Shown piece by piece: positions 5,639 to 21,182 of a stretch of 25,865 nt of DNA. Positions within the stretch are counted from its first letter, which is position 1; each line of letters starts with the position of its first letter. The translations under genes and the position numbers were made by a program. Source of the DNA: a virus; IMG/VR virus record IMGVR_UViG_3300032271_000926, positions 1 through 25,865 of that record; one strand, 5' to 3'. Under the pieces are notes generated by a model. That model had not been told where the DNA came from. It saw only the letters and a program-made list of their open reading frames with translations, and did no database searches.

Positions 5639-7729
5639 TCAATCTCCATACAGGTAGTTAATCACTCGGATACCTTTGGTCCGGGTCTTGGTATCACGCA
5701 TTTCGACCTCGATCACGCCATTAAGTAGCCAGTCATTCAGCATGATATTGGCCGTGCGCTCCTCTACATCCCACCGCGCCATAAGGACGGCTGCGTAGCG
5801 GCCATCCCTGCGGGTGTTGGGCTGAGTGGACCACGGCTTGCTGTCGTCCCACGCCTCCGACATGGCGCGTAGGATCTGGCGGCACACATGCATACTTGGC
5901 CACTCGCTCCTCGGCGCGTCGGGCTTCTCTGCGGTAAATTCAAAATACAGACTACTCTGCGGAACGATGCCGGGGATCTCAACTGGCTTCAACCGAAACG
6001 ACAACTCCCAACCGTCTTGCGCACTTTTAATTTTGCGGGCCGTTAAGGTGCCAATCGAGTTTCCGCTTTCGCGCTCCATCATAAAAATAAAGTCTGCGGC
6101 ACCGTCGAAGACAGTTGACCCACGCAAGTTCCCCTGTCGGCTAGTATGGTGGACACCGCAGACAGTCGAGCCAAAAGCCACTCGCACCTCGTCGCATGCC
6201 TTGATAAACATGGTCATATCCTTTTGCAGATTTTCATCTGCGCCCGGAAGCGATCGGCTGACGGTGTCCACGACCACCAACACCGGCTCAATGCCTGTCA
6301 AAAGGTCGGAGTATTTTATCGTGTTGATCAGGCGCGCAATTTCGCCGTTGTCCATAAAATTAATCGGCTGGCTGATCAGATAAAATGGAATGTCGGCGGC
6401 GCTGATACCCGTCTCCTGCTCCCATGCCGTGATGCGGAACTTGAGATCCGATACACCTTCGGATGAAATATAAATCACAGGGCCGTGTTTGTGGATTGTC
6501 TTGCCCTGCCACTCAGGCAGGCCAGCCGCGATCGCCAAGGCCAAGCTGATGGTGCAGAAAGACTTGCCGCACCCCGGAGGGCCCGCGACAAACCCCAGAC
6601 CATTCTCCACGATCATGCCGTCCACCAACCACTTGGGGTCGGGCATTTCCTTAATCATGGTTACGCTGTAGAGCGTGAACGGCTCAAACTTGGGCCTAAA
6701 AACCCCATCATCCCCCTGAACCATTTCGAGGACGGGCGCGGGAGGCGCGATAACCCTGTCCTCGGAGGCTTTTTTTGGGATGGACGCAGCCTCTTTAACG
6801 GGGCCAGCCCACTTCGACAGGGCAATGTGCCACTTCTTGCGAAACTCAGTCCAGCCACGCCCCTCGCGCTCTAACAGAACGGCATTGTCCGTACCGGGCT
6901 CGGCGATGCGGGACTTTACGCTAGTAGCGTACAGGCTGAACGCATCCCTGCACTCCTCCTCCATAGTGGCGGGTGCAAGGATTGGGCAATCCCGATATAG
7001 GTCAACAATACGCGCCCAGATCAGGCGGCGCATATAATCCTCGCGCCCATCAACGATCGAGCCGAAGGCGTCAATTGACTGCCCCGCGCTTTCGGTCTTT
7101 TCGCGCGGCCCAGCACTGACCCCGCCGTACTCTTCAAGCAACTGGTCTATGGCCTCCAGAGACCACACAGGGGCCTCCTGTAGCTCGACGACCCAAGGCT
7201 CGTACCCCTTGAGCCACTCATAGTTCTTGCCGCTCTCGTGGAGCGACGGAGGGATCACGGCGAAGCCACCCTGACCGCGAATATCAACGCCTATCGTCGT
7301 CTTATTTGTCGGCGGGGTGTACCACTCAGGGGCTTGCAGAAAGATTTGAAGGCCACCGCCGCCAGTGCGCTGCGTAGGCGTCTGGAGCGGAATTCCGTGG
7401 TTATAGAGATCGACAAGATCATCCCACCACTCTTTGGCCCTCGGAAACTTTTGCAGGTCGATATCGACCACAAGCAGGTTACCCGAGGCCTTCCCGCTGA
7501 TAACGCCCATGTTGGTGCGGCGATTATGCTCGCCCCATGCACCATACCAATTGTCAAAAGTGGCCTGATCCACCAACTCATTTTCATGCTCACGCCACTT
7601 GACGATCGGGCGCTTCCATGAAGTGTCCTCTGACGGGCTTTTGGCCGGTACGACTTGCAGACCCAACTGCCTGTAAAGGCTTGCATATTCTCTCGGGCCC
7701 GCGAATTCTTCATCAAATTGAATAGACAT
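5639..7729 (-). CDS. Bifunctional primase-polymerase (PrimPol) and RepA-like hexameric helicase
   Basis: A replication protein of 696 residues. Residues ~10-195 form a bifunctional DNA primase/polymerase domain: the metal-binding D-x-D in LLVVDIDLQKF (D89, D91), the Gly-rich RTGGGGLQIF (121-130), and GVDIRGQGGFAVIPPSLH (147-164). Residues ~370-580 form a RecA-fold ATPase of the RepA/AAA_25 type. It has Walker A GPPGCGKS (383-390), a strand with HGPVIYISSEG, Walker B PVLVVVDTVSRS (D488), and GVHHTSRQGNLRGS, a sensor-like loop. The C-terminal ~100 residues resemble a winged-helix. It probably makes primers and unwinds the fork. AAGGGG lies about 5 bases upstream of the ATG. The usual catalytic His of the Gly-rich PrimPol motif is Gln128 here. 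Confidence 0.9.
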   Translation of the reverse strand: MSIQFDEEFAGPREYASLYRQLGLQVVPAKSPSEDTSWKRPIVKWREHENELVDQATFDNWYGAWGEHNRRTNMGVISGKASGNLLVVDIDLQKFPRAKEWWDDLVDLYNHGIPLQTPTQRTGGGGLQIFLQAPEWYTPPTNKTTIGVDIRGQGGFAVIPPSLHESGKNYEWLKGYEPWVVELQEAPVWSLEAIDQLLEEYGGVSAGPREKTESAGQSIDAFGSIVDGREDYMRRLIWARIVDLYRDCPILAPATMEEECRDAFSLYATSVKSRIAEPGTDNAVLLEREGRGWTEFRKKWHIALSKWAGPVKEAASIPKKASEDRVIAPPAPVLEMVQGDDGVFRPKFEPFTLYSVTMIKEMPDPKWLVDGMIVENGLGFVAGPPGCGKSFCTISLALAIAAGLPEWQGKTIHKHGPVIYISSEGVSDLKFRITAWEQETGISAADIPFYLISQPINFMDNGEIARLINTIKYSDLLTGIEPVLVVVDTVSRSLPGADENLQKDMTMFIKACDEVRVAFGSTVCGVHHTSRQGNLRGSTVFDGAADFIFMMERESGNSIGTLTARKIKSAQDGWELSFRLKPVEIPGIVPQSSLYFEFTAEKPDAPRSEWPSMHVCRQILRAMSEAWDDSKPWSTQPNTRRDGRYAAVLMARWDVEERTANIMLNDWLLNGVIEVEMRDTKTRTKGIRVINYLYGD

Positions 7730-7765: not shown

Positions 7766-8242
7766 TTATAGGCTGGATCCATAATAGGCAATCAGCGCCG
7801 CATCAGACCTCCCATCATCTTTCTTGCGTGCAAACAGCGGGGCAGCCGCCGGGAAAATTTGCATAGCCCTCTCGCGAGAGCCGTCCTTGCCGCCGCGAAC
7901 CCCCACAGCCTTTTGCCAGACTGCGGGAGGCACGATGGTAGTTGGGATGTCGAAGGAGGCCAAGACCCCCTCGACAATCCCTACCGAGCGGCCAAAAGAA
8001 AAGACGCTGGTGACGCCCTGCCCCGGCATTGCCCCGACCCTTTCAAGGAAAGCCACCGCCCGCCCCTTAAGCAGGGCGTTGGAAATCTCGCTCGACAAAA
8101 GCTGCGCGCTAACTTCGCGCTTTGACTTTGCGTTTCGCGTCACCTCCACAGTGGGCATATCAATGATGTCGATGGAGCCTTCCGTCATGTTAAACACACA
8201 GATGGCACCACTGAGGCCGGGGTCAATGCCGAGATAGATCAT
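7766..8242 (-). CDS. RuvC-like Holliday junction resolvase
   Basis: An RNase H-fold resolvase of 158 residues. MIYLGIDPGLSGAICVF carries the first catalytic Asp (D7), AVAFLERVGAMPGQG the catalytic Glu (E67), and KDDGRSDAALIAYYG the final acidic residues (D142/D143 and D147). The order and spacing fit phage RuvC family enzymes, which cut four-way DNA junctions during replication or before packaging. The ATG shares one base with the stop of the GapR-like gene (TAATG), so expression is coupled. It is followed by the PrimPol-helicase after a 36-base spacer containing that gene's ribosome binding site. Confidence 0.88.
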   Translation of the reverse strand: MIYLGIDPGLSGAICVFNMTEGSIDIIDMPTVEVTRNAKSKREVSAQLLSSEISNALLKGRAVAFLERVGAMPGQGVTSVFSFGRSVGIVEGVLASFDIPTTIVPPAVWQKAVGVRGGKDGSRERAMQIFPAAAPLFARKKDDGRSDAALIAYYGSSL

Positions 8243-12533: not shown

Positions 12534-13844
12534 TCAAACGCCGATGGCGAACCAGCTTACGGTTGCAGTGTAGTCATTGGCATTACTAATTGTAAATCCC
12601 GTTGTGCCATTATATGAACTTATGCCGGTGTTTTGACTATCTGTGGTATTTGCAATAGATACGGCAGTGGCAATAGGCTGAACAAATGTTGAAAAGCCCG
12701 GGCCACTAGCTGTGTAAGTGATGGTGGTGCTGCTATCTTGGCTCACGGTTGTCCGACCCCATTGCAAAATCAGGCCATTGTTGAGCTTTACGTAGCCGTT
12801 CGATGTTAGGCTTGATGACGCCACATTGAGCATCGTCGCCGTTGAGCCATTCAACTGTGCAAATAGACTTGCGCCCACAATCCACATGTCACCATTGGCC
12901 GGTGCTGTCGGCGCAACGCCGGGTGTGAGGGTGAAGGCGGCGGCGGAAACCGTTGAGGCAGCCGTAGTGATGTCTGCGCCGGAAATGACCGGAGCCCCAG
13001 TAATGCTAGTGGCGCCAGTGATTGTCGGCGCCGTCAAGGTCTTCTGGGTTAGTGTCTGCGCCCCTGTGGTGCCGACGATCGCACCGCTCGGGGCAGCCAA
13101 AGACGGGCCCCAAGCCGTGCCGGTGGAAACCGCAATGCCAGCGGCAGGGAAGCTGATGGAGATAGGTGACAACCAAGACAGGTTTCCGCTGCCGTCGGTG
13201 GTTAAAAGCTGTCCAGCAGTACCGTCATTCCCCGGGAGCGTGAAGGTCACCGAGGAAGCCACTGCGCCCGCCGCCTTTAGGCCCGTGTAGCCGCTAGTCG
13301 AGCCGTAGAAGCGCAAGGCGCCGCTCGGGGCATCATAGAACAGGCTAGCGGCACCCGTGATCCTAGCGGGAATGGAGCTAGTCGCAGTGCCCGAAGAGAA
13401 GAGGACTTGCCCGTCTACGGTCTGGAAGACCTTCTGCGCGCTGTCTGCAAAGCCAAAGTTGGCACCATCACAAATGATGGCGGTTGTCGCGCCTTGCGGG
13501 ATCTGCACCGAAGATCCGCCACCAATGCTGGCAAACGTGATGGTGAAGCTGCCGGTCGTATTGTTGTAGACCGTCCATGTCCCGCCAACGCCAGCCGGAA
13601 GACGGTAAATGACGTTAGCAGTCAGGTTGGCCGGGGTGGATATGCTCTGGCCAATAATGATGATCTGCGGGGTATACTGGGCAGAGGTTAAATCAACATT
13701 GCCGGAAGCGCCTGTCGGGTTCAGGCCTGTGTACCCCCCAAGCGCGCTGTCGATCGCGGTAAAATTGCTGTTGAGGCTGACATCCCAATTTGGCGCATTA
13801 TACGCCGGTTCAATGAGGTTTTTGTTGGTGGTGTAGGTCGCCAT
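12534..13844 (-). CDS. Tail fibre protein with receptor-binding-type C-terminus
   Basis: A 436-residue fibre. The N-terminus is of the type seen in many phage fibres: TYTTNKNLIEPAYNAPNWDV, LNSNFTAIDSALGG, then VDLTSAQYTPQ and a strand-rich domain with GGTWTVYNNTTGSFTITF. The centre is a Ser/Thr/Gly/Ala-rich shaft (TLTQKTLTAPTITGATSITG). The C-terminus, GYVKLNNGLILQWGRTTVS to NDYTATVSWFAIGV, resembles the gp53-like receptor-binding end found in other fibres. It probably contacts the host surface. AAGGGGAC precedes the ATG. It is separated from the other fibre gene by about 10 kb, between the large virion genes and the lysis genes. Confidence 0.85.
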   Translation of the reverse strand: MATYTTNKNLIEPAYNAPNWDVSLNSNFTAIDSALGGYTGLNPTGASGNVDLTSAQYTPQIIIIGQSISTPANLTANVIYRLPAGVGGTWTVYNNTTGSFTITFASIGGGSSVQIPQGATTAIICDGANFGFADSAQKVFQTVDGQVLFSSGTATSSIPARITGAASLFYDAPSGALRFYGSTSGYTGLKAAGAVASSVTFTLPGNDGTAGQLLTTDGSGNLSWLSPISISFPAAGIAVSTGTAWGPSLAAPSGAIVGTTGAQTLTQKTLTAPTITGATSITGAPVISGADITTAASTVSAAAFTLTPGVAPTAPANGDMWIVGASLFAQLNGSTATMLNVASSSLTSNGYVKLNNGLILQWGRTTVSQDSSTTITYTASGPGFSTFVQPIATAVSIANTTDSQNTGISSYNGTTGFTISNANDYTATVSWFAIGV

Positions 13845-13855
13845 CTTAAGTCCCC

Positions 13856-15679
13856 TTAGATCGCATCTTTGGCAACGTTGAGCGCCTTGACGATCGCGTC
13901 ATCGGAATGGTTCAGAAGCGACTTAGAGCCTGCCTCTTCGTCCCTCTTGGCTTTCTTGTAGCGGTTCATCAAGTCTCTAACAAGCGGCTCCACATGCCCG
14001 ACTGACCCGCCGCTCTTATAGTTTGCGCGACCACCTGCGGCATGGGGTTTCGACATGCGCGCGAGATCGTCCGCCGTGTAGACTTGGCCGTACTCGCCGG
14101 GGTGCAGGCCGGGAAGCTCGTCGGAGGGGGCTGGCTCCTTGTCCTGCATCGGCTGCAACGTGGTCATGCGCGCCACATTTAAGCCCGTGCCCACACCGCT
14201 CAAGTCAGGCGTTGTAGGCGGGGTTACTGGAGCGCCTGCAAGCTCGGCTGTTGCCGAAGTGTCGGGCATCAGCCTGCGTTGCAAAGCAGCCTCGCCCTTG
14301 CCCGCCAGAGCCCCTACGGCAGCGCTCAGCGGATATGCAAAGGGCCCAAGGTGAGAGTACAAGAGGGCGTTTGATAGCGCACCGGCACCGACACCAACCG
14401 CACCCGGCAACGCCTGAGCGAGCCTACTCGGAGATCCGCCAGCCGTGGAAGGCCCAAGATCCTGACGGCCAAGCATGTCTAGGGCCGTCTGATGAATATC
14501 ATACTGCCTGCGCTGCGAGGGCTTCATGTCATCGTAGTGGATGCCTGAAGCGGCTGGCGCGGGTGCCGGGGGCGGCGCAGGAGGTGGGGGCGGGGCCTGT
14601 AGCGCCGCCTGCGCCTCAATTTGCGTGATAAGGCTGGGATTGGAGACTGTGGCGCCAGTGGCATTCTTCCACTGCCCAGAAGCTGGGTCATGGGTAAATT
14701 TGCCAAGCCCCGCAATATTTACCGGAGGAGCGGGCGGTGCGGGAGAGGCGGGAGTAGGGAGAGGGGTTGGGGCCCGAGGCCCTGTCTGGACATCCCCAAA
14801 CTTCCGTCGCTGTTGGGCCGCTACGTCAGCCCGCGCTTGGGTAAGATGACCTTCGGTATCCACCCCTGTCGGAGGCGCCTCCCGCATCGTTGTGCCGCGT
14901 GTGGGGGTCTGCACCCCGGCATGCCGCAAGACCGCTTCTCGGGCAGTGGCTGCGCTTACACCCTTATCTTTTGCAATGCCAGCCCAAGTTCCTTGCAGGC
15001 CCTTATCGCCGAAGAGCTTGGGATCAATGCCCGCATCGGAGATCGCCTGAAAAGCTTCAGGGGAAAGGCGGGTTTGGCCACCCGGCTTATACAAACTGTA
15101 ATAGGAAGGCTTGGCCTTTGCTGCCGCGACAAAGGCGGGGGCCTTGCCCAACGCGGCGGCTCCCCACTTTACAGGGTCTGGGTAGTATGAGGCCACCTTT
15201 GCTCCCGTCCTTAATGCACTTGCCATCCCGGGCATGCCCGCACGTTCGGCCATCCCGGGCATGCCCGCACGTTCGGCCATCCCAGCGCCGCCCCTGAAGC
15301 CTCCGCCTATCGCGTCTACCAAGGGGGCGGCATCAAGTATGGTGGCGTAAGGGTCTTGGTAAAAATGCTCGGCTACATTGCTGGCGATCGGTGCGAGATT
15401 GGTTGGGGACGCGCCTTTGCCGTATTGCGCATAGTGCTTCACCGCCCCCTTCAATGCCGGAATACCGGGATCAGCTTTTGCCAAATCTTTGATATATTTA
15501 GGCATCCAACTGGTTTTGGCTATTACAGGCGCATACGGTGCGGATGGACTCGCAATCGAAAGCGCACTCGGAATACCCTCAACGAACCCCGCAGCAGCCT
15601 TTTTGGCATTCTCCCATGATGCATTGTTAATTACGCCTAGCCAATAATCCTCATAAGTCCGCTGGTTATTGTCTGCCAT
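13856..15679 (-). CDS. Large Pro/Ala-rich internal virion or ejection protein, 607 residues
   Basis: Starts MADNNQRTYEDYWLGVINNA, with AAGGAG about 9 bases upstream. The N-terminal ~190 residues are Ala/Gly-rich and hydrophobic in patches. Residues ~135-152 contain a tandem repeat of GMAERAGMP. A Pro-rich stretch follows (APTPLPTPASPAPPAPPVN; APPPPPAPPPAPAPAAS). The C-terminus has HAAGGRANYKSGGSV and then VEPLVRDLMNRYKKAKRDEE, LLNHSDDAIVKALNVAKDAI, a tail that I recognise from phage internal virion proteins of unknown structure. It is encoded directly after the transglycosylase protein and probably enters the cell or lines the ejection channel. No enzyme motif is seen. Confidence 0.7.
   Translation of the reverse strand: MADNNQRTYEDYWLGVINNASWENAKKAAAGFVEGIPSALSIASPSAPYAPVIAKTSWMPKYIKDLAKADPGIPALKGAVKHYAQYGKGASPTNLAPIASNVAEHFYQDPYATILDAAPLVDAIGGGFRGGAGMAERAGMPGMAERAGMPGMASALRTGAKVASYYPDPVKWGAAALGKAPAFVAAAKAKPSYYSLYKPGGQTRLSPEAFQAISDAGIDPKLFGDKGLQGTWAGIAKDKGVSAATAREAVLRHAGVQTPTRGTTMREAPPTGVDTEGHLTQARADVAAQQRRKFGDVQTGPRAPTPLPTPASPAPPAPPVNIAGLGKFTHDPASGQWKNATGATVSNPSLITQIEAQAALQAPPPPPAPPPAPAPAASGIHYDDMKPSQRRQYDIHQTALDMLGRQDLGPSTAGGSPSRLAQALPGAVGVGAGALSNALLYSHLGPFAYPLSAAVGALAGKGEAALQRRLMPDTSATAELAGAPVTPPTTPDLSGVGTGLNVARMTTLQPMQDKEPAPSDELPGLHPGEYGQVYTADDLARMSKPHAAGGRANYKSGGSVGHVEPLVRDLMNRYKKAKRDEEAGSKSLLNHSDDAIVKALNVAKDAI
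15222..15283 (-). repeat. 27-base direct repeat inside the 607-residue virion gene
   Basis: Two perfect copies of a 27-base unit (15222-15248 and 15249-15275) are followed by 8 further matching bases. Each unit contains the palindrome-like CCCGGGCATGCCCG. The repeat is in frame and encodes two copies of a 9-residue unit (GMAERAGMP). Perfect identity suggests a recent duplication by slippage. Confidence 0.9.
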
Positions 15680-15684
15680 GGTGA

Positions 15685-18600
15685 TTACTCCTTCACTTCA
15701 GCGAACTTGCCGCCGGGCAGGGCGACCATGATCTTGCCGTTAGGACCAATAAAGGCGTGACCGGGCGAGAATGCTGCCCCTTCTTTCCAGTGCGGCAATT
15801 CACTCTTATACGGAGCCAAATCTCGCGCAGTCATGCCCTTGAAGATTGGGGTATTTGCCACTGCATGACGGTGATAGACATTGTATGGGTTCTGACGTGC
15901 CCAATCATTTTGCCACTTAGTGATGTTATTAAAGTCAGGATATTTCAGGTGATCGTTGAAGTTGGCGGCAAAGCGCTCCTTCAAATATGCCGCAGTCTCG
16001 GCGCGCGTGACGGCATCAAACCGAGCGGCGGGAGTATCCATCGGGCCCGTTGGAATGGGGGGTAGTTTCACCCCAATCTCCTTGGCAATCTGGTCGGAAG
16101 ATGCGTAAAGCGCTTTGGTGAAGTCCGCAGTCGATTGCGCGCTGGAAAGTGCTTGCGCTGCCGCAGGCGTAAAGAATTGCCCAAGGCCAGGTACGGATCT
16201 CGCAGCAGAGGCTGCATTAGCAAATGCCTGAGTATTGGGCTGCAAATCGTTGCGTGTCGATATATCTGCTATCCGGTTAAGGTAGCTTATAGTGGACTGA
16301 TATTCCGTCGGAGTGTTTGCTAGCGCTTCTTGGAAGCGCGCTTTTGCGGCGTTATTCACATTCACGCTCGCCTGATGTGAAGCATCCCGCCCTGTGAAAT
16401 CGCGCCACAAATTGACGGGTTGGCCACTAGTGGTCAACTGGGGGACTTCGCCCCTTTCAATGCGCTGCATCTGCGCCGTCGCCTGAGCCGCGTAGGCTGG
16501 GTTGGTTTGAGCAAGGTGCTGCTGGTGATAATAGCTGTATTCCGGAAGAACGCCAGCCGCCTGCTCTTCGGCTTCGGTGGGGCGATTTGGGCGGTCATAA
16601 GCCTCGGCGTATGGAGAGACATAGGGCTTCTTCGCGGGAACCTCCGGGGTTTGCGCGGGCGCAGCTTGCGTAGTCGGCGCCGCCTTCATTACTCCCGTAT
16701 CCAAGGCAGAGGCGGGGGTTGGAGCGCCTTGCGCAGGGGCGGCGGGGGCAGAAGACCCACCCGGCGGCGCATAGGCCGTCAAGATTGCATTGGCCATAGG
16801 GTTGCCTGTCCCCCCAACTTTTCCAGAACCGGGGTTAAGGGCAGCCATAGCCGTCTGAACGGCCTCCGAATATGCCTGACTGTATTCAGGGGCTCCCAAC
16901 ACCCTCCCGGTCCTCTGGTCAATCCACGACGGGATGGGCTGGCCATTCGTGTCCGTGCGGGCGTAGGGCTGAAAGCGCGCCTGAATGGCGGGCATGATCT
17001 GGCCAAGCACCCGCGCGTTGACTTCGGTTTCGCGGGCGCCGGTCGCGCGATTGGCGAGCTCAAACTCACGCTGCTGCTGGTAGGCCTGTGTGCCAGCCCC
17101 AAGGCCGCTTGCAAGGGCTACGCCAAGGCTGCGCGTCGGCGCGGTGCCCATGGCTGCTAGGCCACTGAGGAGCGACAGGACTGCGTCGGTCTTGCCGTGG
17201 CGAAGATCAGTGAAGTAGCCGCCGTTCCAGATGTTGTTCAACAGGCCGTGGTGTTCTGGCTTCCCGCCGGATGGCACAAGTCTCTCAAGCCCTTGCTGCG
17301 CTGCCTGATCGCTGAGGTACGGGGCACTATCGGGAGTGGTGATCTTGTCTACAACGCGAGGGTCCGCCTGTGGTGTCATCGGCGGCGGCGTGACAGCCTT
17401 TCCGGGGACAAGGCCCTTGCGGCGGCGAGTGAGGTCATTTTCATCCTGCGGGTCGAGCATGCTGTCAATGCCCCGTAGGGGGGCTCCAAGACCCTCGCTC
17501 ACGGCAACATTGCCGCTTGGTGCGTAATTAGACTTCTGTGGATCGTCAGGGTTCTGTGGATCGTCAGGGTTCTGTAGATCGTCAGGGTTCTGTAGATCGT
17601 CAGGGTTCCGAGGGGGTCCACCCCAGACGTACCCATGACGCCCCGCAAGCCCGCCCGAGGCACGCCCAAGGCGACCCTCTTGCTTGGCCATAGTGTTGCG
17701 AGCCCAGTTGATCGTACCTGCGACTGACTTGCCGCGAAGGAAGGGGTTGGCCTCGACCACGGCGGGGCTAACATGGGCACTGATTGGGTCGTTCGGGTTG
17801 GCTGCTAGGACCGACAGAGCGCCGTGCGTGCCGAGGAAGTGGGCAAGGTAGACGTTGCCAGCATCGGGCTTAAAGCCCGCCTTGGAGAGGGCCTGTGCGT
17901 TATCTGCAATGTACATCGGGCCCAACTGATCGCTGATCCCCGCGCCTTCGGGCGTATGCTTAATAGCAGCGATATCATGGTCGCTCATGCCAGCGGCGCG
18001 GTCGGGGAAGGCCTTGCGGAAGTAGCTTGCAAAGGTCTTGTCGAGCATCTGGTAGGGGCCCAGTGCGCTTGACCGGGGGTTCTTGCTCAGACCTTCGCCG
18101 CCGCGAATGAGCTTGGCGATCGTGCCAAGGCCAGAAGTGTCGCCGATGGATTGCGGGTGGTCTTCGGGCGGCGTGGCAGCAGCCAGACCTGAGGGCGTGG
18201 CTCCAACTCCCATAGGGGTATCCGCAGGCTGGTCCGGAGTCGGCTGCATATCCGTATCAGGCACGCCGCCAGCCAGCCCTGCTGCCTGATCCTGATAAAT
18301 TTGGTCGGGGTGGGAAATCTTTTTAATCTTTGCCATGACCTTGGCAAGGTAATCAGACTGACCGCCCGCCGCAAAGTGGCCACGGTCGGCTGCGCGATCA
18401 GTCGCGGCATCGTAGTCCACCATCTTGACGCCGTGCTGATGGCCGACGGCATGCGGGTGGTGATGCTCGACTTCCTGCGCAATCAGGCCGATTTGCGTGC
18501 GGTGGTCACCCTTGTAGTTGTACGAGTAAACTTTCTGGCCGTCGAACAGTTCGCCAATCGGGCGGATATTGTCCTTCACGCGTGCGTCGGAAAGGCCGAG

Positions 18601-20655
18601 CATGGGGAGGAAGGACATGACAGTTTTAGCGACACCCATCGTCTGATCGAAGCCAGACTTGCCCTTTTGAGGCGCCTGCCCTGCCGTCTTGAGTTCCGGC
18701 GTCTTGCCCTGATCGTCAGGAATATTCAGCCCGTTGCTGACCTGCTGGCTGTATGGCATCGAGGCGTCTCCGCCTGCGGCCATGCGAGGGGCCAATTCAT
18801 CCAGTTTGTGATGGAAAATGTCGTTATCCCGAGTTGGGATTTTCCCATCCATTGGATGGGACTCAGCCGGAGGCGGGGCCTGAGTCGGGGCCTGAGTCGG
18901 GGCCGGGTCCGATCCACTCTTACCCTTGATGAGGTCACGACCAGCTTGGTAGGTGTCCATGCCGGACTTCACGGTGTCGGTGATCGACTTAGCCTGCTCG
19001 GCGGGGCTTGCGCCCTTCGACAGCCCGCCAGCCACGGCAAGTTGGTGCGACCCAGCACCCTGTGTCGGAATACCAATGCCGCCCACGCCTCCGGCAGCGC
19101 CAGCACCACCGCCAAGGCCAGTGAGGCCCGCAAACATCTGTGGGTACTGGCTCAGGAAGCCGTAGGATGGGTCGTAGCCGACATCAGGCATGCCGCCCAT
19201 AGCGAAGCCTTGCCCCGTATGCTCGGGCAGCACGCCGCCGCCCATGCTGGAATAGCCTCCCCCGGCTAGGCCCATGCGGTCCTTAAGCTGCTCGTCGTAG
19301 GGGTGAAGCAGATCCTGCATCTCGCTAGAGACATCTTGCCGCATGGCGGGGGACATTGCTGAGTAATACTGACTAAGATTGGGCGTAGCGCCGCCTGCCG
19401 CAAAGTGGCCGCGATCAGCCGCGTGATCGGTCGCCTTGTCGTAATCGACTGTCTTGATCCCGCCAGCGAGGCCTACTGCGTGCGGGTGGTGGTGCTCAAC
19501 CTCTTGCGCGATCAGACCAATCTGCGTCTGGGGGTCACCCTTGTAGTTGTAGCGGTAGATATGCTGGCCATCGTAGGTCTTGCCGACCTTCTCAATGTTC
19601 TCTTTGACGCGGGCGTCCGAGAAGAAGCCGCCCGGTTGCGAGGTCGTCGTGGTGGAGCCCGAGTTGGCGCCAGTACCTTCGGCGATGTTTGCGAGGAACT
19701 GTGCAGTTTGGAATGGATAGGACTGCTTCTGTAGGAATTGGTTATACTGGGCAGTGTCGAGGGCCTGATTGGTTGCCTGCTCGGTCTGACCGGCTGCCAG
19801 CTGCGCCTGAGCGCCCTGAAGGGAAGCGGCCTGCGCCCCCGCACCAAGGCCAGCCATGCCCTGCGAGGTCTGGTAGCCCATGCCGTAGATATCTTTGCCA
19901 AGGCCAGCCAACTGGCTTCCTTCGCCCATCTGCTGCGTATAGCCCTGCTGGCCAAGGGCAGCCATGCGATCGGCGGTGCTTTGCATCGCGGCACGGTTGG
20001 CCTGATCTGCGGAAAGGTTGACGCCCTGCTGCTGCTGCGCAGTCCCCAGAGCCTGATTATAGCCCTGATTGAGGATCCCACTAAAGATATTGGCATTGGC
20101 AAGCTGCTGCTGCTGAGCAAGGTTCGCGGCGGCAATGCCCGCACGGTCCCCGCCAAAGCCGCCGGAGCGAATAGCGTTGCCGGTCTGTCCCGCCATGGCC
20201 TGCTGGTTCATCTGGTTCTGGAGGGCGGCGGTGCCCTGCAAGACCGTGCCCAGATAGGGACTCATGTACTTGTTGACGTCGAGGCCTTGGGCATTGACTG
20301 GGCCTGCGCCAGCTTGTGCATAGCCTGTGGCTGCGCCAAGGTACTGCTGCCCCTGTTGACCAGCGCCAACCGTAAAATCTGTCGCGCCCTGATAGTAAGG
20401 CTGCGCCGATGCCTGCGCATTTTGCAGGTAGTTTGTGGCCTGCTGGAAATAGGGCTGGGCCTGATTGGCTGCGGCATTTGTGCCAGCAATACCCGCCTGC
20501 TGCGTCGAAGTGAGCGGAGCAACAAACTGACCGCTATACTCCTTGAAGGGGGTGTTAGCCGCCTTCTCGGCGCGGGCATTGACCGCGTTGTACCGAGCAA
20601 GGACCTCGGGCGGGATGGTAACCTGTTGGGTAGAAGTAGAGGTTTTTTTACCCAT
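15685..20655 (-). CDS. Giant internal virion protein: two internal S74 chaperone/protease modules and a lytic transglycosylase
   Basis: A 1656-residue virion protein. Residues 1-330 are Gln/Ala-rich (FVAPLTSTQQAGIAGTNAAA; NKYMSPYLGTVLQG; FGGDRAGIAAANLAQQQQLA), a layout seen in phage ejection proteins. Two S74-type intramolecular chaperone modules start at S346 (SDARVKENIE) and S689 (SDARVKDNIR); each has Ser and Lys five residues apart, then YNYKGD and IGLIAQEVEHHHPHAVG. Residues ~845-990 form a lytic transglycosylase: IRGGEGLSKNPRSSALGPYQ (E854 probable catalytic) and NVYLAHFLGTHGALSVL. PDDLQN-type repeats (1017-1041) and a long C-terminal region of ~600 residues follow. The enzyme would open peptidoglycan during DNA ejection. 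S74 modules usually end proteins and cut before the Ser; here they are internal. Confidence 0.85.
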   Translation of the reverse strand: MGKKTSTSTQQVTIPPEVLARYNAVNARAEKAANTPFKEYSGQFVAPLTSTQQAGIAGTNAAANQAQPYFQQATNYLQNAQASAQPYYQGATDFTVGAGQQGQQYLGAATGYAQAGAGPVNAQGLDVNKYMSPYLGTVLQGTAALQNQMNQQAMAGQTGNAIRSGGFGGDRAGIAAANLAQQQQLANANIFSGILNQGYNQALGTAQQQQGVNLSADQANRAAMQSTADRMAALGQQGYTQQMGEGSQLAGLGKDIYGMGYQTSQGMAGLGAGAQAASLQGAQAQLAAGQTEQATNQALDTAQYNQFLQKQSYPFQTAQFLANIAEGTGANSGSTTTTSQPGGFFSDARVKENIEKVGKTYDGQHIYRYNYKGDPQTQIGLIAQEVEHHHPHAVGLAGGIKTVDYDKATDHAADRGHFAAGGATPNLSQYYSAMSPAMRQDVSSEMQDLLHPYDEQLKDRMGLAGGGYSSMGGGVLPEHTGQGFAMGGMPDVGYDPSYGFLSQYPQMFAGLTGLGGGAGAAGGVGGIGIPTQGAGSHQLAVAGGLSKGASPAEQAKSITDTVKSGMDTYQAGRDLIKGKSGSDPAPTQAPTQAPPPAESHPMDGKIPTRDNDIFHHKLDELAPRMAAGGDASMPYSQQVSNGLNIPDDQGKTPELKTAGQAPQKGKSGFDQTMGVAKTVMSFLPMLGLSDARVKDNIRPIGELFDGQKVYSYNYKGDHRTQIGLIAQEVEHHHPHAVGHQHGVKMVDYDAATDRAADRGHFAAGGQSDYLAKVMAKIKKISHPDQIYQDQAAGLAGGVPDTDMQPTPDQPADTPMGVGATPSGLAAATPPEDHPQSIGDTSGLGTIAKLIRGGEGLSKNPRSSALGPYQMLDKTFASYFRKAFPDRAAGMSDHDIAAIKHTPEGAGISDQLGPMYIADNAQALSKAGFKPDAGNVYLAHFLGTHGALSVLAANPNDPISAHVSPAVVEANPFLRGKSVAGTINWARNTMAKQEGRLGRASGGLAGRHGYVWGGPPRNPDDLQNPDDLQNPDDPQNPDDPQKSNYAPSGNVAVSEGLGAPLRGIDSMLDPQDENDLTRRRKGLVPGKAVTPPPMTPQADPRVVDKITTPDSAPYLSDQAAQQGLERLVPSGGKPEHHGLLNNIWNGGYFTDLRHGKTDAVLSLLSGLAAMGTAPTRSLGVALASGLGAGTQAYQQQREFELANRATGARETEVNARVLGQIMPAIQARFQPYARTDTNGQPIPSWIDQRTGRVLGAPEYSQAYSEAVQTAMAALNPGSGKVGGTGNPMANAILTAYAPPGGSSAPAAPAQGAPTPASALDTGVMKAAPTTQAAPAQTPEVPAKKPYVSPYAEAYDRPNRPTEAEEQAAGVLPEYSYYHQQHLAQTNPAYAAQATAQMQRIERGEVPQLTTSGQPVNLWRDFTGRDASHQASVNVNNAAKARFQEALANTPTEYQSTISYLNRIADISTRNDLQPNTQAFANAASAARSVPGLGQFFTPAAAQALSSAQSTADFTKALYASSDQIAKEIGVKLPPIPTGPMDTPAARFDAVTRAETAAYLKERFAANFNDHLKYPDFNNITKWQNDWARQNPYNVYHRHAVANTPIFKGMTARDLAPYKSELPHWKEGAAFSPGHAFIGPNGKIMVALPGGKFAEVKE
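17534..17605 (-). repeat. Four tandem 18-base repeats in the giant virion gene
   Basis: Four consecutive 18-base units (ttctgtggatcgtcaggg, with g or a at one position) occupy 17534-17605. They encode the six-residue unit NPDDLQ or NPDDPQ four times, between the transglycosylase domain and the C-terminal region. The first two units and the last two differ at a single base, so expansion looks recent. Probably a flexible acidic linker whose length may vary. Confidence 0.9.
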
Positions 20656-20681: not shown

Positions 20682-21182
20682 TCAGTCCTCGCTGGGCGAG
20701 TTACCGCCAGCTTCGCCCGTCTTGGCGCCGTACAGGAAAAATGCTCCCGCAGGTTCGCCGAATTGACGCTTGTATAGACGAATTTTCGCCTCAGTGCGAC
20801 TATTGCTCAATACACCAATAATGAGGGGAATTCCAAGGGCATCTGATACGCTTTTTGCGAACTCACAAAGCTTACGGGCACGCCCTACCTTGGCGGCTCG
20901 GTAGTCGGGGTGGATAAAGATCGCCCTCTCCTCCAGCACTGGGTCATGAGAGTACCACATCTTCCCCGTACTCAGCAAAATAGCGCCTTCAATGGGCCCG
21001 TCAGCCTTGCAAACAATGCCCACGATGCCGCTGTCTTTAGATAAGAGTGACCACATGTCGGTTGCCAGAAGGCCCGGATCGGGATTGACGAAGGCATTTT
21101 CCGCACAGCCCATCAGGGCTAAGTCCATCATCTCATCCATATCTTCGACAGAACCAATGCGTATAATTAGATCATCTTCCAT
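20682..21182 (-). CDS. GNAT-fold acetyltransferase-like protein
   Basis: A 166-residue protein with the GNAT layout. It has an N-terminal strand and helix (IRIGSVEDMDEMMDLAL), a central sheet (PIEGAILLSTGKMWYSHDP), then ERAIFIHPDYRAAKVGRARK, which resembles motif A where acetyl-CoA pyrophosphate binds, though the classical Q/R-x-x-G-x-G/A is degenerate here. A helix and strand (LCEFAKSVSDALGIPLIIGV) and KIRLYKRQFGEPAGAFFLYG close the fold. GNAT proteins between structural genes are common in phages; the substrate is unknown. AGGTGATGT lies directly upstream of the ATG. It sits between the 380-residue and the 1656-residue virion genes. Confidence 0.75.
   Translation of the reverse strand: MEDDLIIRIGSVEDMDEMMDLALMGCAENAFVNPDPGLLATDMWSLLSKDSGIVGIVCKADGPIEGAILLSTGKMWYSHDPVLEERAIFIHPDYRAAKVGRARKLCEFAKSVSDALGIPLIIGVLSNSRTEAKIRLYKRQFGEPAGAFFLYGAKTGEAGGNSPSED

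Follow-up and report, generated by a model that had tools for sequence, protein, structure and literature searches.

The DNA analyzed here (the window, meaning the whole stretch of 25,865 nucleotides), for which no DNA similarity to cultured phages was found, carries an open reading frame (ORF) of 1656 residues in which two peptidase S74 modules and a lytic transglycosylase are fused within one ejection-type protein (Table 1). The gene directly upstream, whose product gives an Acetyltransf_7 match below the cut-off, occupies the place of phiGT1 gp16 (P22 gp14-like), and the 607-residue ORF directly downstream would, judging from its position, encode a third internal virion protein. Elsewhere in the window we noted a 696-residue primase-helicase-like protein (5639-7729; DNA primase-like N-terminal part, phrog_1156, and helicase-like C-terminal part, phrog_906 and phrog_2850), a RuvC-like Holliday junction resolvase (7766-8242; phrog_1770, E = 1.7e-35) and, downstream of the ejection genes, a tail-fibre-like protein whose C-terminus carries a Gp53-like_C domain (12534-13844).

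Table 1. Features of the ejection locus, with positions in the window.
Feature	Position	Strand	Basis or remark
Fused ejection (internal virion) protein ORF, 1656 aa	15685..20655	minus	two S74 modules and lytic transglycosylase; GGAG (RBS-like) ahead of ATG
N-terminal ejection domain, residues 1-345, all-helical by prediction	19621..20655	minus	phrog_4287 match; AF2 helices
S74 module 1, residues 346-422 (S346, K351)	19390..19620	minus	PF13884, 39.1 bits; AF2
Candidate scissile bond F345-S346	19618..19623	minus	placed by analogy with MYRF P586-S587 (PMC8326128)
Inter-module region, residues 423-688, Gly-rich, hydrophobic segment at its end	18592..19389	minus	sequence
S74 module 2, residues 689-765 (S689, K694)	18361..18591	minus	PF13884, 44.2 bits
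Candidate scissile bond L688-S689	18589..18594	minus	placed by analogy with MYRF P586-S587
Lytic transglycosylase domain, residues ~843-1013	17617..18129	minus	phrog_4067; Foldseek 3bkh; conserved Glu
C-terminal region, residues ~1014-1656 (~640 residues)	15688..17616	minus	without family match
GNAT-type acetyltransferase, directly upstream of the ejection ORF	20682..21182	minus	phrog_1249, 2e-7; synteny with L142 and L006
607-aa ORF, directly downstream of the ejection ORF	13856..15679	minus	no family match

Two lines of evidence mark the fused ORF as an ejection-type protein. Residues 1-407 match the family phrog_4287, annotated as 'DNA ejection protein' (E = 1.2e-20), and the gene follows a GNAT/P22 gp14-like gene and encodes a peptidoglycan hydrolase, the setting of P22/T7-type ejection genes. 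By synteny and ejection-protein profile it thus fills the same functional slot as P22 gp7/gp16/gp20 and T7 gp14/15/16, which are, however, encoded by separate genes and are not known to carry S74. The transglycosylase that the first-pass annotation had placed downstream of the modules is indeed there: the region matches the transglycosylase family phrog_4067 (2.1e-15), its predicted fold is closest to phiKZ gp144 (3bkh; Foldseek E = 6.9e-4, prob 1.00) and the Glu of such an enzyme is conserved (near-invariant E200 of A3), whereas Pfam gives no recognition of the domain. No other part of the ORF, apart from the N-terminal domain and the S74 modules, has a family match.

The modules themselves had been described as two 77-residue units starting at S346 and S689, identical at 58 of 77 residues and each containing SDARVK (the Ser-x4-Lys spacing) and IGLIAQEVE; a direct count agrees with this to the residue. 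Both match PF13884 (Peptidase_S74) well above the Pfam curated cut-off of 22 bits, and the profile finds the two stretches on the whole protein with E = 9.5e-20. At the DNA level they share only 164 of 231 positions, with 29 synonymous differences among the codons of identical residues and with different codons for Ser (TCG/TCC) and Lys (AAA/AAG), which shows that the doubling arose neither through duplication in the assembly nor by recent copying. Their upstream contexts differ as well: a Ser/Thr-Gly linker comes before module 1 and a hydrophobic stretch before module 2 (in the window, residues 664-688, within the top 1.5% of the protein's stretches by hydrophobicity), a pattern that the window shares with most two-module relatives. 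We also observed that motifs of the F/M-A-x-G-G type repeat along the ORF (residues 416-422, 759-765, ~483-489, 624-629 and 999-1015), two of them closing the S74 modules (RGHFAxGG), and that the short motif MPYSQQVSNGLNIP (window 18718-18759, ORF residues 633-646) has counterparts of the form (M/V)PYxxxxxxGLDIP between the modules of L003, L004, L024 and L032 and could be a linear motif.

To survey relatives, we scanned with the module alignment, the patterns being placed only around YKG and IGLIAQ and not over the catalytic end. The scan yielded 78 viral loci, among them 52 distinct complete relatives on viral contigs, 30 with two modules and 22 with one; in all 52 the module is internal, in ORFs of 941-1986 residues that continue for 582-1551 residues beyond the last module. 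The arrangement is therefore widespread and not an oddity of the window, and the earlier placing of internal, doubled modules in an ejection-type protein is supported. The window is a metagenomic contig, a virus record of 25,865 bases and perhaps only a fragment, which invites the suspicion that the fused ORF or its duplication is an artefact of assembly or gene calling, but the arrangement recurs on other contigs in 52 relatives that are distinct and complete, the two copies have diverged in DNA and similar public uncultured-phage proteins are already annotated with the domain, all of which makes this exceedingly improbable. Together with the profile scores, the 52 relatives led us to reject artefact and chance alike. 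The first module of the window clusters with the first modules of other proteins and its second module with their second ones, which indicates that the doubling is old in the window's lineage and led us to reject a recent tandem duplication there. Both modules of one protein cluster together in L027/L036, L039/L046 and perhaps L040 and L048, so that duplication or homogenization seems, from few alignment columns and with weak support, to have happened more than once.

Across this family the catalytic end is strictly maintained. Ser1, Asp2 and Lys6 are invariant in 103 of 103 nonredundant modules, although they were absent from the scan patterns, and the remaining fully invariant columns of the 102-row alignment are Gly, Ala or Pro. 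The Ser codons include all four TCN forms and one AGC, which argues for selection on the Ser at the protein level. In L056:4501-10461 and L049:4993-8424 the second modules have diverged from the first to only 12-17 positional identities in 77 residues, and the dyad is kept. The N-terminus and module 1 are 43-74% identical to the window across relatives, as opposed to 14-34% for the region after the last module, where different cell-wall enzymes are carried; the module thus marks a boundary between conserved and exchanged parts.

The first-pass annotation had assumed that S74 sits C-terminally in known proteins, which is incorrect, as MYRF contains an internal, autocleaving S74 domain (PMC3742440, PMC8326128). 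In MYRF, S587 and K592 are essential, R590, Y615, Y617, I637 and Q639 contribute, and the Y615A/Y617A double change abolishes correct cleavage (PMC8326128). These seven residues align to module positions 1, 6, 4, 24, 26, 37 and 39, respectively, with the qualification that the MYRF profile match (7dc3) starts at position 2, S1 being placed by register since S587 is Ala in the crystallized protein. At the equivalent positions of 102 modules we find S in 102, R in 96, K in 102, Y/F in 102 (position 24) and 95 (position 26), I/M/L in 101 and Q in 99. Like the window modules, the intramolecular chaperone autoprocessing (ICA) domain of MYRF/MrfA is internal, has a functional part downstream and shares the dyad and the aligning reaction-centre residues; unlike them, it is present in single copy in a transcription factor rather than a virion protein and comes with a beta-helical stalk and a trimerizing alpha4 helix, the latter driving the trimerization that cleavage needs (PMC8326128).

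A second comparison comes from phages in which a small protein terminates in the same short S74, namely the Sulfitobacter phages NYA-2014a and phiGT1 and Bradyrhizobium phage ppBeUSDA76-2, and likewise from apparent prophages of Bradyrhizobium, Mesorhizobium, Methylobacterium and others. In several of these split forms a glucosaminidase, SLT or phage lysozyme gene comes next, and in others no hydrolase was recognized. The closest parallels, phiGT1 gp17/gp18 and NYA-2014a SUFP_020/SUFP_019, share with the window the short S74, the Ser/Lys dyad, the lack of alpha4 and the peptidoglycan hydrolase that comes next, and phiGT1 also shares the gene order after the GNAT gene; they differ in that their S74 ends a separate protein of 326-342 residues, whereas the window has it twice, internally, in fusion with the hydrolase part. 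The authors of the phiGT1 study describe weak relatedness to the P22 ejection proteins, and mass spectrometry of the phiGT1 virion exists (PMC10386132, Table S3). The split hydrolase of L090 matches the transglycosylase region of the window (hhalign 96.8%), and the window ORF accordingly spans at least two split-form genes, with module 1 on the seam. Comparison of the C-terminal ~640 residues with the second proteins of split forms detected no relation, so that homology between the two finds no support, a point against the fusion proposed below. As a separate observation, the split-form S74 of L097:4787-6280 (also L099 and L100) has a ~25-residue insertion in its core and still contains the Ser and Lys.

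Because a complete active site is under strict selection and is sited at what is a gene boundary in other phages, autoprocessing appears the most likely function of the modules, and we lean, with some reserve, towards a single chain that is autoprocessed by its S74 modules at the seams between fused ejection proteins. The ORF would then be a fusion of a small helical ejection protein that ends in a short S74 module, a second part that likewise ends in S74, and a peptidoglycan-cutting ejection protein, each module acting as an autoproteolytic seam: Ser1, activated by Lys6, would attack the peptide bond just before itself, so that, while the virion assembles or afterwards, the chain would be severed immediately ahead of S346 and of S689 into products of ~345, 343 and 968 residues, each S74 module staying at the N-terminus of the following piece. 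The self-processing polyprotein envisaged in the first-pass annotation is supported in part, namely by the location of module 1 at a two-gene boundary of split phages, as such a polyprotein predicts, and by the invariance of the dyad in 103 modules; cleavage into the three predicted pieces is plausible. As the Ser/Lys dyad is general in canonical S74 sequences too, its conservation may partly mirror the family.

A variant of this scheme, which we consider improbable, has cutting take place at module 1 only, with module 2 retained as a surplus unit that serves in assembly. In its favour, the gene boundary of split forms coincides with module 1, no split counterpart of module 2 is known, one-module relatives are common (22 of the 52 complete ORFs) and the upstream contexts of the two modules differ as described above; against this, the dyad is kept everywhere in module 2, and the copies are old and separately maintained in the window's lineage.

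The structural data bear on a broader alternative. Module 1 is modelled by AF2 with a pLDDT of ~91-94 over most of its core and finds, among viral Foldseek matches, an 'Endosialidase chaperone' (A0A8S5TG63; 72 columns, rmsd 1.8, prob 1.00, E only 2.6e-2). Searching PDB folds with the N-terminal model brought up nothing but long-helix look-alikes and listed no S74 chain, an outcome dominated by the long helices and judged uninformative. The model around module 2 is poor (pLDDT mostly <60, 17 sequences), and the predicted S74 fold is therefore stated on the basis of module 1. Upstream of module 1, residues 16-331 are predicted to be largely helical, with no strands before residue 351 and no triple beta-helix stalk (AF2, moderate confidence); the region upstream of module 2 yields a low-confidence model. 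Downstream, the conserved Tyr is followed by a median of 8 residues among 27 split-form S74 ORFs versus 47 among 23 canonical ones, the window chain becomes Gly-rich ~16 residues past this Tyr, and the C-terminal alpha4 coiled coil is absent from the window and from all split relatives examined. The C-terminal chaperones of endosialidases, neck appendages and tail fibres share with the window the PF13884 family and the dyad but differ in their C-terminal position, upstream triple beta-helix, long C-terminal helix and release after folding. The modules belong to PF13884 and to an ejection-type protein and are not an endosialidase-type C-terminal chaperone; the intramolecular-chaperone role assigned earlier finds no support, with the trimerizing helix missing and no upstream beta-helix predicted. 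Given the lack of alpha4 and the helical upstream region, the classical role of folding, trimerizing and then releasing is not transferable, and cleavage would have to rely on some other means of oligomerization.

This missing helix is the main reason for doubting autoprocessing, and a reading in which the modules fold as S74 without cutting, serving instead as assembly or docking units (in self-association or in portal or scaffold binding) with Ser, Asp and Lys kept as a helix cap and for structural contacts or by family inertia, deserves serious consideration even if we hold it to be rather unlikely. It would account for the loss of alpha4 in both fused and split forms, for the absence of a beta-helix stalk to chaperone and for the hydrophobic segments that adjoin the modules, chiefly module 2; furthermore, the GLIAQ stretch, which corresponds to a region reported as needed for trimerization of phage proteins (PMC3742440), is retained in ejection S74 modules. 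Yet a purely structural Ser or Lys should sometimes become Thr, Asn or Asp, or Arg, which happens in none of the 103 modules, some below 25% identity, and the cutter-hole aromatics are kept too. Autoprocessing at the seams hence stays our preferred reading, with oligomerization presumably supplied from elsewhere, as the usual trimerizing helix is absent.

Proteins of the same type exist in public data as uncultured Caudovirales entries named 'Intramolecular chaperone auto-processing domain containing protein' (BFVD A0A6J5LD05, A0A6J5N916 and others), which have 1329-1487 residues, are 47-50% identical to the window over the N-terminus and module, and are known from database annotation only; a literature search for S74 in ejection proteins found no paper describing or testing them. 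Polyprotein processing by protease modules embedded in the chain itself is a more familiar theme in RNA viruses than in tailed phages. More tentatively, we propose that the locus may represent a tailed-phage ejection apparatus organized as a self-processing polyprotein, in which two helix-less S74 modules have been repurposed and a fibre chaperone has become a general processing element. Even without cutting, an S74 subtype that lacks the helix and is linked to ejection proteins constitutes a distinct class, of which we found no description in the literature. Should cutting at the seams occur, many uncultured phages would derive the injection machinery from a single precursor that brings its own proteases, equimolar parts and control over timing would follow, and the S74 active site would work without the coiled coil thought necessary for it.
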